A stretch of 64,000 nucleotides of DNA from Terriglobia bacterium (GTDB lineage: Bacteria > Acidobacteriota > Terriglobia > JAIQFV01), in the NCBI GenBank assembly GCA_020072965.1, contig JAIQFY010000031.1, positions 1-64,000 on the forward strand. Direction: 5' to 3'. Below the pieces are notes generated by a model, which was not told where the DNA came from, ran no database searches, and saw nothing but the letters and a program-made list of their open reading frames with translations. Both the position numbers and the translations under genes were made by a program. Each line of letters opens with the position of its first letter. Position 1 is the stretch's first letter. Shown here piece after piece: positions 1 through 24,674 of this stretch.

Positions 1-126
1 CGCCTGAAGCTATGGGAGTTTGAGTACAATACGCGACGGCCCCACCAGGCGCTGGGAGGCCAAACGCCGATGGAAGTCTATCTCTCGGGGTATCGTACTC
101 ATGCTCATACTCGTATGCTAACGTAG
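1..126 (+). mobile_element. C-terminal fragment of integrase-core (rve/DDE) transposase, truncated by window edge
   Basis: Frame 1 from base 1 reads RLKLWEFEYNTRRPHQALGGQTPMEVYLSGYRTHAHTRMLT*; YNTRRPHQALGGQTPMEV is typical of the end of IS3/IS481-type transposases. Confidence 0.75.
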
Positions 127-17269: not shown

Positions 17270-18577
17270 CTACTTCGCCGCCTTTTGCAGCTCCTTTATC
17301 GCGCTTGAAATCCTTTCAATGTTGTGGTCACGTGCTTGTTTGACGCCAATCGCCTGCGCAGACTGTAACGCCTCATCGAGGACGCGGCGAGCTTCCGAAG
17401 GCTGTCCCGACTGGGTCAGCGCGTCGGCCTTCGTTTCAAACAGCCATGTCCGGCCCAGTGGACCGCTGACGTGCTCCAATCCGCGATCGCACGCCGCAAT
17501 GGCCTCGTCATATTGTTTTGCCTCGATCTCCATCTGGGCGAGCCGCAGTGACGCGTTGTAGTTGTTCGGCATGGCTCGTTCCGAGGCGATCAGTGCCGGC
17601 AGCACCCGCGATGCAGCCCCCAGGAAAGACGCTGCGTCGACCCGTGCAATATCGAGTGCGGACCGCTCGTCCTCGTTGGCGGGGCGTGTCGCCTCGAGTT
17701 CGTTAAGCCAGCGGTCGCCCCATCGCGCCAAGGTCGCCTTATCACCGCGCGCTTCAGCGTCGTGCATGAGCTGCTGATAGAGCTGAAAGCGATGGTCGCG
17801 CAGCGTCGCCGGCAGCGCAATCGCTTCCTCCGCGAGCGGCTCCAGGGTCTTTCGGGCGCCTTCGGCCCACGGAGCCGGTCGACCCTGGTTCACACACATG
17901 ACTCCTGCGAGAACGACTCTTCCAAACATTTGGCCACGCGTCATATGCACTGCTTCCGTGGAGGCCGTTTCGGCACAGGCCTGCGATTGTCCACTCAACA
18001 TCAGCGCCCAGGTAACCGATCCGACCGCGCGCCCGCGCTGAGGCCAGGTCCCTCCTCCGGAGCGGAGGGCCTCACGATAAGCTGCGGCCGCCTCAGCGTG
18101 CTGGCCGTGGGCGAGCAATTCGTCGCCCCGCGCGAGAGCCGCGTCGGCAGGCATTCCCGCTTTCCCGATGACGCCGTGCTCCCCGTGGTCGAGAAATTGC
18201 GTCAGCTCGGGCAACGTCATCCCCCCGATCTGCGTTGCTGTCGTCCGTTCATCGGCAGGGTCGATCACGAAAAATGACGGGGTATACATCACCCCGTGTC
18301 GCGCGAGAAACGCTTGATTGTCCGGTTTATCAAAATTGAGCTCGAGCCAGACGAACTGTCCGGCGTACCTGGCGAGGCTGGCGTCGGCCAACGTAGCTCG
18401 CATCAGGCGACACGAATATCACCACGGGGCCCACACTTCGACGAATACGGGCAGCTTCTGCCGCTTCGCTTCGAAGAGCGCCCTGGGGTAGTCGTCTTCG
18501 ATGAAGGGCAGGCGGGTCGTCGCGAATGCGGACGTGGCAAGCATTGAAAGCAACACCCACATCGAGAGTTTCTTCAT
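17270..18577 (-). CDS. Secreted thioredoxin-fold protein with C-terminal repeat region; candidate selenoprotein with in-frame TGA at 18419-18421 (UxxC)
   Basis: SD ggaggtgcacaATG; MKKLSMWVLLSMLATSAFATTRLPFIEDDYPRALFEAKRQKLPVFVEVWAPW-[TGA]-YSCRLMRATLADASLARYAGQFVWLELNFDKPDNQ...YTPSFFVIDP; the two listed ORFs (17270-18403 and 18419-18862) share a frame. Confidence 0.75.
18368..18407 (-). promoter_or_regulatory. Putative bacterial SECIS-like stem-loop
   Basis: Starts 12 nt after the TGA: CCUG(AU)GCGAG(CUAC)GUUGGC-CGAC-GCCAGC CUCGC CAGG, 15 pairs, apical loop 33-36 nt after TGA. Confidence 0.4.
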
Positions 18578-18672
18578 TGTGCACCTCCAGCGCCGGGAAT
18601 GGTAGAATGATATCGGTCTGTTCACAAGAGCCGATCTCGATTTGAAAAATGGACCATTTGGAGGATGGAACC

Positions 18673-20124
18673 ATGCGCCGATCGCAGGGTGTGCTTCTGC
18701 CGCCAGTTCGCGTCGCGCGTCCGCGGCGTGGCGACGTGTATCGCACGCTTCGAGCCGCAGTGCTGGACGGCGTTCTCTCTGCCGGCGAGCGGCTCCCCTC
18801 GACGCGGCAGGCTGCCGCCGACTACGGCGTCTCGCGCGGAATGCTGGAAGAGGTCTTCGCACAGCTCACCGAGGAGGGCTTTATGGAGCGCGCGGTCGGA
18901 CGCGGGACCTTTGTCGCACTGACGGTGTCACGGCTGAGTGCCCCCGCGAAGCAAAAACAGGGACCGCGGCGCTCGCCCACGCCATCGCGCCGCGGTCACT
19001 CGGTCGCCGCGAATGCCGCCTGCCGCGAGCCGGCGGTTCCGAGCCCGTTTAATGCGGGCATTGCCGATACAAGCGAGTTCCCATGGAAGATGTGGCAGCG
19101 GCTGATGGCGCGCTCGGCGCGCGAGCTCGGGCATGGTGCCTTGAACTTTGCTGACCCGCGTGGGCTGCCAAACTTGCGGGTAGCAATCGCTCGCTACCTG
19201 GCCCAGTTCCGTGGAATCCGATGCCAGCCTGGCCAGGTCATCGTCTTCAACAGTGCGCAACAGGCGCTCAATGCGCTTGCCGTGCTGCTGCTCGATCGCG
19301 GCGATGCCGTCTGGATCGAGGATCCCTGCTACCTGGGCGCACGCGCCGCGTTCGAACTCGCGGGGGCAGCGATCACACCGGTGCCCGTCGATGACGAAGG
19401 TATTCGCGCCGACACCCGGGTTCGCCGTTCCGCCCGCGCGCGCCTTACCTATGTGACGCCTTCGCACCAGTACCCGACCGGCGTCGCTCTGGGTCTCGAG
19501 CGCCGCATCGCCCTCCTCGAGGTCGCGGAGCGTGACGGATCCTGGGTCGTGGAAGACGATTACGACGGCGAGTTTCGCTACGAAGGGCAGCCGCTCACGG
19601 CGCTCTATTCGCTCGACTCCCAGGGGCGCGTGCTCTATATCGGCACCCTGAACAAGTCGATGTTCGTTTCGCTGCGCCTCGCTTATGCCGTTGTGCCTGA
19701 GGAGCTCGTGGAATCGCTGGCGAACATTCGTACTCAGCTCGACGGGTTCACGCCGGCGGTGCGGCAGATGGCGATGAGCCTCTTCATGGACGAGGGCCAC
19801 TTCTCCTCGCACTTGCGCCGCATGCGCGCCGTGTACGGAGCAAAACGCGCAGCCTTGGTCGAAGGACTTGCGCCGCTCGCCGCACTGGGCTGGACGTGGT
19901 CGAGCAACCCCGCCGGCATGCATCTCCTAGTGCGGCACAAACGGGGCGACTACGTTCGCGCCGTCGCCACGGCCAGCTCTCTTGATCTTGCGCTGCTCAG
20001 TGCTTACCGGATCGCCCGAACGCGCGACGACGGCTTGTTTCTTCGCTTTGGCGCCCTCGACACAGCAAGTCTCAGTGCCGGCATCGCAGCGCTCGTCGCG
20101 GTGGCAAAGAAGATGAGTCGGTGA
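18673..20124 (+). CDS. MocR/PdxR-type GntR-HTH + aminotransferase-fold transcriptional regulator
   Basis: GntR HTH (LSAGERLPSTRQAAADYGVSRGMLEEVFAQLTEEGF) plus class I aminotransferase domain (YVTPSHQYPTGVALGLERR, YIGTLNKSMFVSLRLAYAV). Confidence 0.9.
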   Translation: MRRSQGVLLPPVRVARPRRGDVYRTLRAAVLDGVLSAGERLPSTRQAAADYGVSRGMLEEVFAQLTEEGFMERAVGRGTFVALTVSRLSAPAKQKQGPRRSPTPSRRGHSVAANAACREPAVPSPFNAGIADTSEFPWKMWQRLMARSARELGHGALNFADPRGLPNLRVAIARYLAQFRGIRCQPGQVIVFNSAQQALNALAVLLLDRGDAVWIEDPCYLGARAAFELAGAAITPVPVDDEGIRADTRVRRSARARLTYVTPSHQYPTGVALGLERRIALLEVAERDGSWVVEDDYDGEFRYEGQPLTALYSLDSQGRVLYIGTLNKSMFVSLRLAYAVVPEELVESLANIRTQLDGFTPAVRQMAMSLFMDEGHFSSHLRRMRAVYGAKRAALVEGLAPLAALGWTWSSNPAGMHLLVRHKRGDYVRAVATASSLDLALLSAYRIARTRDDGLFLRFGALDTASLSAGIAALVAVAKKMSR

Positions 20125-20515: not shown

Positions 20516-22774
20516 CTATCCCTGCTTGCGAATCAGCCTACCCAACGCCTCCCGATCGGGTGCCAGGAGCTCGGAGATCCGCTGGTGGTCGACGTCGGCG
20601 ACGATGATCTGGCCGACCTCGGTGTTGACCTCGTGGAAGATGCCTTGGGACCTCATCTTCGCGACCTGATATTGGTTATCCTCGGTGGGGGTGACGTAGT
20701 GCACCGAGTCGACCCTGAAGCGATGCACCAGGAAGAGGTGGATGAGAGTCATCAGGCGTTTCTTGCGCAGCGACTCCACGAAGGTGTTCTGGTCGCGCAC
20801 CGAGAGGATGCTCCGGCCACGCCGGTCCTGGATCGGGGCGAAGACGACGTTGGCGAGCTTCTCCTTCCCCGTGTCGTAGATGGTGAGCTCGAGCAGCTCC
20901 GAGCCGGCGCTGTGGGGCCGCAGCTGGACGCGGAGCCCGCCGGGGAGCTCGTAGTGCTGCGTCCACATCGCCAGCCACTCCTCGAGCAGCTTCTTGGGCA
21001 CCTCGGTCTGTACCAGGTGCTGGTGCTGGGTCGAGCCCTTGCCCATCGCCATGGTCGTCGCCGTGCGCCCCGACGTGGCCGCGAGTGCGGCGTCCCCGCG
21101 CGGTCCGCCGACGAGGGTCTGTGGCGTGACGTAGGGCGACTCGACCATCCGCAGCTTTCGTTGCAGGCGGGCGAGGGCCAGCATGCCGTCCTGCTTGAGG
21201 GCGATGGCGAGCTCCTCGGCGGCGAGTCCATCGATCTGGTGGCCGCCGTACGTGATGAAGTTGAAGACGAAGCCCAGCTTGCCGAGTTCCTCGGGGAAGC
21301 GCCGCATCTCCTCCTCGCTCATGCCCGTGGTGTCCCAACTGAACGATGGCGAGAGATTGTAGGCGAGCATCTTGTCGGGAAACTCGGCGTGGATCGCCTC
21401 GGCAAACGCGCGGGCGTCGGCGAGGTGGGCGGTCTTGGTCTCCATCCAGAGCAGGTCGGCGAAGGGCGCCGCGGCAAGCGACTTGGCGATCGCATAGGGG
21501 ACGCCGCCGCGAACCTGGTAATACCCCTCGGGCGTCTTGGCTTTTTCTGAGTCCCAGAAGACGTCGGCGTTGAGCTCCCGCGCTTTCTCCCGTGCGGCGT
21601 AGAGCGAGGCGCGCGAAGCGAAGCGCCGCCATTCGTCGACGCTCAGGGTGAGCGGTTCGCCCTCGCTGGCACGGAACTCGAGCACTTCGGCAACCGCCTC
21701 GCCGAAGGTCTGGAGGCCGGCCTCGTCCTCCCACGCTGCGAGGAAGCGGCAGGCGACTCCGTCGAACGTGGCGTCGAGCGAGATTCCCTTTCCCTCCCGG
21801 TGGGCCGCCGCAGCTTCCGCGACCTGAGAAAGGAGGCCATGGCGCTCGAGCCAGTCGGAGGCGACGGCGTGCTCGCCGTCGGCGATGGCGTAGAGGAGGT
21901 GGCCGTTGAGCTCCCGGACTCCCAGCTCGTAGAAGTGCCGGATCAGCGACAGGAAGCACGCCTTGTAGGCCGGCAGGTCGCGGTTGGTGGCGCCCAGCAG
22001 GAAGGGCTGGTCGCGCTCGTCGCCGCAGCCGTCGATCAGGTTGGCCGCCTCGGCGTCGGTGCGGGCGACAATGATGCCTGCAACCCCCATGACGTCGAGC
22101 TGGAAGCGGGCGGCGTTCAGGCGCTTGTTCTGCTCGTCCTGCGGCACGAGCACCTTCCCCCCCTGATGGCCGCACTTCTTGGTGCCCGGACGCTGGTCCT
22201 CGATGTGGTAGCCCGGCACGCCGGCCTCCACAAAGCGACGGATCAGGTTGCGTACGTGCGGGTCGCCGCCGTGGCCGGTGTCGGCGTCGGCGATGATGAA
22301 CGGCCGGAAGTCGCGGGCCGGCGTCGCGGCGCGCTGCGCCTCGGTCATGCGCGAGCGCAGGTACTGCTGGTTGCGGTCGGCCGTGAGCAGGGCGCGCACC
22401 AGCATGGCGGCTTCGTCGGGAACCTGGCTGAGAGGGTAGCTCGCGAGATCGGGTCCCGGGTCCTCGCTCGTTCCCCCCTTGGCGGAGGTCGCCCAGCCGC
22501 CGAGGTAGATTCCCTCGATCCCCATCCGCTTCATCGCCACCGCCTGCCCCGGCGAGTAAGGGCCAAAGGTGGTCATGCTCTTGCGCTCAGCGAAGAGTTG
22601 GCGCAGACGGTCGTAAAAGGCCGCCGCGGCCTCGCGCGGCACCGTGTAGTCGTGGGCGATCGTGCCGCGCTGCTCGGCCACCTGACGCGCAGTGTAGAGG
22701 CGGACGACGCCTCGGAAGCGGGGGCTGTCGAACCACTGCTGGGTGGCGGCGACTTCCTGCTCGAACGAGTTCAT
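20516..22774 (-). CDS. aceA: Isocitrate lyase (long form, about 750 aa)
   Basis: Active-site [33 protein letters not shown]-terminal extension [39 protein letters not shown] aaggagcccgagtATG. Confidence 0.93.
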
Positions 22775-22790
22775 ACTCGGGCTCCTTGCT

Positions 22791-24674
22791 TCAGGTGACA
22801 AAGTCCAGGCTCTCGGTGATCCGCGTCCCGTCGCGCTCGAAGGCCTCCATGTAGGCCTGGATGCGGGACCTTGCCGTGGCGAGGTCGTGGTTGTCGAGGT
22901 TGAGATTCAAGAGGTCGATGTACCAGGGCGGCTTGACGCGATCGGTGACGTAGGTCGCGACGATCTCCCGTGCGATGGGCAGCGTGGTCGCCTTCGAGTC
23001 GTCGTGGACGTCGCGGTCGCGCGCGCCGAGCAGCTTCTTGTACTCTTCGGCGAGCAGCCGCCCGAAGAGCGCGGCGTCGAAAGGGTCGCCGCCGCGGACG
23101 CCGGTCGCGGGGTCGTCGTCGGTGAATTCGGCGCCCTTCTGCAGCCACTCCCAAAGGATGCTGAGACGGATCTCCCCGGTCGCCATATCCTCCATCAGGT
23201 AGAGCACGTCGTCGTTGCCGAAGAAGTCCGCCGGCTTAAGCGCCGCGGCCTGAAACCCCCGGCCGAACGCATTGCCGTACTGCAGGGCGACGCTCAGCAG
23301 ATCGCGGGCGCCCCGGACGGTGCGCGGTGCCGGGTCGAGCAGCACCAGCGCGTCGGCGTCTTCCGGAGTGTAAGTGAGAGGCGCAAACTCGCGTCCAAGC
23401 TGGTTGTCGGCGCCGACCTCCTCCCATACCGGCCGCACGATGTGCACCATCTTCCAGTGCGCCACCCACTTGCCGCTCGCTCCGGCGCGCTGCTCGCGCT
23501 CGCCGCCGGCCTTCGCCCTGCGCATGCCTGCGGCGACGCCCGCGTCGGAGCCGACCGGGATGTTGGGCTCCATCCCGCCCTGCCAGAGGGCGTAGCGGCC
23601 GCTCCGGTCGGGAGTGTTCACCGCCCGGCGCACGCGGTCCTCGTAGGTGCGCATGTAGCCGTAGGTCATGCCGATGGCGTCGATGTTGGGGTTGACGAAG
23701 TCCGGGTCCCACGCCATCGCGTCGGCGACGCTGTTGATGTAGTCCCAGCGCCCGGTGTTGAAGCCGACGAAGTGGCGGCCGAGGGCGGCCCGGATCTCCA
23801 TCAGCTGGAACGCCGCCTCGATCTGCTCGACCAGGACGTAGGCCTTGATCGTGCCCACCGGCATCCCGAGGTGCTGCTCGAGCGTGGCGAGCAGGTCATT
23901 CCACAGCGCCGCCTCTTCGGCGGTCTGGATCTTCGGCAGATACAGGACGACCGATGCCCCGGCGTCGCGCAATCGCTGCTGGTTGTTGACCACGTAGAGC
24001 ACGAGGTCGACGATCGAGGCGGAGAAGCCGGTGCCGCCCTTCTCGCGCGCGTGGCGGTCATCGAGGTGCAGGCCGCGGACGCGGAAGATCTTGGTGGTGA
24101 AGTCGAGCTGCTGCCGCCAGTCGGCGATGATGGGTCGACCGAAGAACCCTTGCGCCCACTGGTTCATCTCGGCGGCGACGTGTTCGGCGACGCGCAGGAA
24201 GAGCGGGTCTCGGGCGATCGCAAGCCGCAGGTTGTGCTGGTTGTCGAGAGACATGGTGGTGACCTGCCCGAGGGCATCCTCACCATCGAACATCCAGCCG
24301 TCGGCGCCCGAGAGCAGAGCATAGGCGACGTTGCGCAGGCCGCTCTCGATCGTCGCCCGCGGTTTGGTGCCGGGTCCGGTGCCCTGGATCCACTGGCGCT
24401 TCAAATCGGCGGGGATCTCGCTGCCCTCGAAGTTGCCGTCGCGGGCGTCCTGAACCCGGATGCCGGTGCGCGGGATTGGCGCCCGGGGGTCAAGGAAGGC
24501 GATGCGCTGGTGGCCGCGCGCTCGCGCCAGTCGCCGTGCGATGCGCGATGCCATCAACTCGCGCCGGTCACGGTTTAGCGGGGCCAGGGCCTCTAACGCC
24601 TCGAGCGCCGCTGGGGTGTAGACCTCGGGGTACGCCTCGAGCACGCCGGCGCGATATTCGAGTGTGTGAGTCAT
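22791..24674 (-). CDS. aceB: Malate synthase (A-type)
   Basis: [76 protein letters not shown]. Confidence 0.92.

Follow-up and report, generated by a model that had tools for sequence, protein, structure and literature searches.

The window, that is, the whole stretch of 64,000 nucleotides analysed here, carries on its minus strand a coding sequence for 435 amino acids with an in-frame TGA at codon 53. The gene and the features assigned to it are the following.

17270..18577, minus strand: whole coding sequence, 435 aa with putative selenocysteine (Sec) at residue 53 and a TAG stop; homology spans residues 1-435
18583..18588, minus strand: Shine-Dalgarno GGAGGT, preceding the ATG at 18577, read directly
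18577-18575, minus strand: start ATG, read from the sequence
18518..18577, minus strand: probable signal peptide (MKKLSMWVLLSMLATSAFA), with K-rich start, hydrophobic core and A-x-A by eye; pLDDT is low there
18167..18505, minus strand: thioredoxin-fold domain, about residues 25-137, Pfam Thioredoxin_7 (from Pfam and the AlphaFold2 model)
18419..18421, minus strand: TGA, codon 53, putative selenocysteine at the first redox position of UxxC
18410..18412, minus strand: resolving Cys56 of UxxC, invariant in 59/59 aligned members
18363..18411, minus strand: SECIS-like hairpin right after the UGA; its apical loop, CGAC, lies at 18386-18383, 32 nt past the UGA
18278..18280, minus strand: cis-Pro-type Pro100 of the thioredoxin fold (segment YTPSFFVID), invariant in 59/59
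17276..18151, minus strand: TPR superhelix, about residues 143-434 (from Pfam, the AlphaFold2 model and the fold search)
17975..17977, minus strand: conserved Cys201 of the TPR part, 56/59 members
17894..17896, minus strand: conserved Cys228 of the TPR part, 58/59 members
17272-17270, minus strand: stop TAG, read from the sequence

The preliminary description of this DNA had noticed a Shine-Dalgarno motif (ggaggt) ahead of the ATG at 18577, a signal peptide in the frame, a TGA at 18421-18419 after PVFVEVWAPW with YSCRLMRATL beyond it, and about 380 open codons with a cis-Pro-like YTPSFFVID. Our examination agrees on each point: GGAGGT is located at 18588-18583 on the minus strand, a K-rich start, a hydrophobic core and A-x-A can be read from the sequence as a probable signal peptide, and the TGA is codon 53 (PVFVEVWAPW-U-YSCRLMRATL, with TGA translated as U) and the single in-frame TGA of the gene, followed by 382 further open codons in which the proline is P100. 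To this first reading the present analysis adds a TPR superhelix at the C-terminus, a hairpin resembling a SECIS element, and membership of a large family in which Sec and Cys have been exchanged repeatedly. Translation with table 11 splits the gene into ORFs 18419-18862 and 17270-18403, so what automated annotation reports is probably a fragment that begins with the ATG at 18403.

The product (P0001) is matched in Pfam by Thioredoxin_7 at 9.6e-11 and then by several TPR models. An alignment of 59 family members from the fetched loci, which was also the input for AlphaFold2, gave a confident model with a mean pLDDT of 93.8 and a pTM of 0.89, in which residues 25-137 or thereabouts form a thioredoxin fold and residues 143-434 an all-helical superhelix. 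Thioredoxin_7 is matched by 59/59 aligned members and the TPR models by most. Trp52, column 53 (Sec or Cys), Cys56, Pro100 and Gly372 are invariant in the alignment, and Met59, encoded by the ATG at 18403, is kept in 55/59 members. Cys201 and Cys228 are located on adjacent TPR helices and may be linked to each other by a structural disulfide. The best solved structures found by Foldseek are YbbN/CnoX of Salmonella and E. coli, with poor whole-length overlap, followed by many TPR proteins, while the nearest by sequence are 2kuc, a putative disulphide-isomerase that we take to be from Bacteroides, and the C-terminal domain of DsbD.

Full-length homologues were found in Acidobacteriota, Myxococcota and Eiseniibacteriota. 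Column 53 of the full-length members holds TGA in 47 loci, a Cys codon (TGC/TGT) in about 50 and no other residue, which bears out the earlier proposal that the TGA replaces the catalytic Cys of WAPWCxxC; in each Sec member this is the sole in-frame TGA, and column 56 is always Cys. Besides the window gene, 46 loci from at least two phyla carry the TGA at this codon, down to 33-34% protein identity and beyond what chance would give. These relatives include a locus of the same genus (L003, 86% identity), a Thermoanaerobaculia MAG (L065, 66%), G351 and G367 (about 49%) and, more distantly, G011 (41%), a Myxococcales MAG (L068, 37%) and a Bryobacterales MAG (L067, 34%); G436 also carries a Sec-form member. 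Cys is found at column 53 in an Eisenbacteria MAG, a Polyangiaceae MAG and a Myxococcaceae MAG. A wider search at E <= 1e-12 located the family in 132/195 Myxococcota genomes and in 26/396 sampled genomes of the window's phylum, some of the weak matches in this second set being other thioredoxin-fold proteins. The family is rare in the window's own class, with five intact genes and one 5'-truncated remnant among 399 genomes. No relatives were found among IMG/VR viral contigs, and the plasmid search returned only a distant thioredoxin-domain match.

The remnant (L064 / L073, G385:C140:969140-969532) retains the last 130 TPR residues, with no trace of thioredoxin upstream. We also noticed tandem Cys-form paralogues in some Myxococcota (L160, G534:C1:9349207-9351983; similar in G522, G531 and G533), one of which reads ATAGWC, not WAPWC, ahead of the motif.

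A search of the genome for selA, selB, selC (tRNA-Sec) and selD, which the preliminary description had proposed as a check, found all four in the genome of the window (G000; 5.9 Mb, 108 contigs, 100% complete): tRNA-Sec at 69.8 bits with anticodon UCA, selB at 381.7 bits (cut-off 242), selA at 556.5 bits (cut-off 268) and selD at 376.7 bits. Across the family, selA is present in 77/80 family-bearing genomes and in 9/9 others tested. The three family-bearing genomes without a selA match are G771, which has the Sec form, and G471 and G512, which have Cys forms. The absence from G771, an assembly of 490 contigs with two tRNA-Sec matches on two contigs, is probably due to fragmentation; tRNA-Sec is present in G471, and in G512 neither selA nor tRNA-Sec was found. 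Cys forms mostly sit in Sec-decoding genomes as well, so losing the Sec trait is usually not what drives the Sec/Cys switch. The selD gene of the window's genome (L053, G000:C68:64978-65904) itself carries an in-frame TGA (VKAAGUAAK), as it does in G001, G002 and G011, at what we take to be the customary Sec position of SelD.

A close examination of the RNA following codon 53 was made by comparing the minimum free energy of positions +3..63 after the codon with that of synonymous shuffles built, for each gene, from the codons of that gene. The mean z is -1.96 for Sec members (n=43) versus -0.08 for Cys members (n=48), with a Mann-Whitney p of 1.3e-13 that is too optimistic because the members are related; control segments farther downstream and upstream gave no difference in structure between Sec and Cys. 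Among seven independent Sec/Cys pairs, structure follows Sec in about 4-5, opposes it in about 0 and is tied in the rest (sign test, median p 0.06-0.13 depending on the cut), and close pairs differ modestly. One long hairpin is formed in 43/43 distinct Sec segments, with an apical loop beginning 29-33 nt after the UGA. The bSECISearch rule calls for a hairpin directly after the UGA, with a loop about 16-37 nt away and a G among the first two bases of the loop, and the window gene conforms to a rule of this type with its CGAC loop 32 nt past the UGA. The excess stability of its own hairpin is modest (z of about -1.1; p of 0.07 in the bSECIS scan). A strict bSECIS scan with short arms gives weak p values in most single sequences, the signal being seen only over the full +3..63. 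RNAalifold returned a consensus on the window's own clade of five and none on 38 Sec sequences outside it, because the basal stem slides by ~2 nt between subgroups. An Rfam scan of the window gave no match, bacterial SECIS elements being too variable for one model. On these sequence comparisons the predicted hairpin is well supported at the level of the family, short of proof for each gene.

A tree of 94 members, calculated with column 53 masked and silent on the direction of each change, needs eight Sec/Cys changes, seven of which are forced by strongly supported branches. Judged from this tree, the family has switched between Sec and Cys at least seven times. Close Sec/Cys sister pairs include L141/L102 and, inside one genus, L116/L110, and some Sec and Cys members share >90% DNA identity around codon 53.

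The sel genes, a column occupied by Cys or TGA only and the recurrence of the TGA across genomes support the Sec insertion suggested in the preliminary description, and the in-frame stop almost certainly encodes the active-site selenocysteine of an exported redox protein. The best explanation overall is a genuine selenoprotein, an exported UxxC thioredoxin-TPR oxidoreductase, to which we assign a probability of about 0.96. The other possibility raised at the outset was a pseudogene, a dead or truncated gene in which TGC/TGT has recently mutated to TGA or has been misassembled as TGA. One point mutation would indeed yield a frame that is open but for a single TGA, and decay does occur in this family, as in the 5'-truncated remnant of G385. 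However, 47 loci that were assembled independently and represent at least two phyla share the TGA at this codon, which excludes an assembly error, and the frame contains no other stops. For G000 against G001, dN/dS comes to 0.145 ahead of the TGA, 0.131 over the remaining thioredoxin domain and 0.248 over the TPR region; such low values on both sides of the TGA indicate purifying selection and exclude a dead gene, so that we give the pseudogene practically no weight. Reading of UGA as some other amino acid, by a variant code or a suppressor tRNA, is just as improbable: the frame would be open whatever residue the TGA encodes, but column 53 alternates with Cys only, not with Trp or Gly, selA or tRNA-Sec is present in every Sec-form genome tested, and the orthologue L004 ends in TGA as its true stop, which excludes wholesale reassignment of UGA.

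It is also very unlikely that the locus gives two products, a short exported peptide ending at Trp52 and a second protein, begun internally at Met59 (ATG 18403), that comprises part of the thioredoxin fold and the TPR region. The ATG lies six codons past the TGA, where gene callers will start, and Met59 is conserved in 55/59 members, but it is equally conserved in Cys members, which have no stop. No Shine-Dalgarno sequence is visible ahead of it, and a protein started there would be missing the active site as well as the first strand of the fold.

For the selenoprotein, we propose that UGA codon 53 would be decoded by the genome's own SelA, SelB, SelD and tRNA-Sec, with decoding directed by the hairpin just 3' of it, and that the product would be exported, presumably to the periplasm. 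The selenolate of U-x-x-C would then attack a partner's disulfide or oxidised thiol, the reductase direction being the one we infer, and Cys56 would resolve the Se-S intermediate. The TPR superhelix behind the thioredoxin domain most likely serves to hold the partner or client protein in position. The combination of a signal peptide, a DsbD-like thioredoxin domain, UxxC and a TPR arm points to a likely role as an extracytoplasmic thiol-disulfide oxidoreductase, with the TPR part recruiting its partner or client.

A true selenoprotein might instead act mainly as a chaperone-like holdase, an extracytoplasmic analogue of CnoX, and not as a plain thiol-disulfide reductase. CnoX is a chaperedoxin with an N-terminal thioredoxin fold and a C-terminal TPR region that joins holdase and redox functions (PMC8129009), the window protein has the same order of domains, and YbbN/CnoX of E. 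coli and Salmonella are its best fold matches. The TM-scores to YbbN are nevertheless low (0.21/0.32, with an rmsd of 25) because the TPR part differs; CnoX is a partner of the cytoplasmic GroEL/ES without Sec, whereas the window protein has a probable signal peptide, and E. coli CnoX is SxxC. We consider a mainly holdase function unlikely, and by whole-length fold the protein, with YbbN/CnoX as its top Foldseek match, falls outside that family. It is similarly doubtful that these proteins constitute a new widespread extracytoplasmic selenium-dependent chaperedoxin class, in which Sec would raise thioredoxin reactivity, the TPR arm would capture envelope clients, and the Sec or Cys form would be set by ecology across Myxococcota and Acidobacteriota.

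The protein was compared with known thioredoxin-fold systems. The Sec thioredoxin (PF00085, UxxC) and other UxxC selenoproteins, an established class (inventory PMC13188914), likewise have a thioredoxin fold with Sec first and a resolving Cys; the window protein differs in its probable export, in Thioredoxin_7 as best match and in a TPR superhelix of ~290 residues. It scores 28.6 bits against the curated cut-off of 96.8 for the TrxA equivalog TIGR01068. The Trx7/PDZ selenoprotein NF041199 is also a Thioredoxin_7 selenoprotein, with a weak profile relation to 11/59 members (best E 8.5e-06), but has Sec second (CxxU) and a PDZ partner domain, whereas the window family has UxxC with TPR, and Pfam finds no PDZ in it. 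The DsbD C-terminal domain and TsoB (NF045694), which act in extracytoplasmic thiol-disulfide exchange, are the nearest thioredoxin-fold models by sequence; unlike them, the window protein is stand-alone and soluble, with TPR and without a membrane domain or rhodanese, and it scores far below their cut-offs. P0001 scores below the cut-off of every NCBIfam model as of June 2026.

No thioredoxin-TPR protein is among the 119 prokaryotic selenoprotein families inventoried in 2026 (PMC13188914), and the present work adds a widespread, probable selenoprotein family whose layout is missing from that inventory. The selenoprotein listing of a 2006 survey gives 'thioredoxin (2)' for Anaeromyxobacter dehalogenans (PMC1794560), and one copy of the family may have been counted there as 'thioredoxin', with the family itself unrecognised. 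Gene callers will miss the family, since the UGA interrupts the frame and a conserved Met follows six codons on. The many Sec and Cys members, some congeneric or >90% identical in DNA, make a good natural experiment on the advantage that Sec, compared with Cys, brings to a thioredoxin fold, and on the gain or loss of a SECIS hairpin around a codon flipping between UGA and UGC/UGU.

A conserved neighbourhood was sought, and none was found except a divergent GntR/aminotransferase regulator limited to the three closest relatives, so genomic context gives no function. This regulator (18649-20124, plus strand; GntR-HTH and aminotransferase, MocR/PdxR-type) is divergent to the candidate selenoprotein gene and shared with G001 and L065 only. 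Farther along, an isocitrate lyase gene (20516-22801, minus strand) adjoins a malate synthase gene (22791-24674, minus strand), the two making up a glyoxylate bypass pair. The isocitrate lyase has 761 aa, presumably longer than usual for this enzyme, and its ICL match falls in two stretches.
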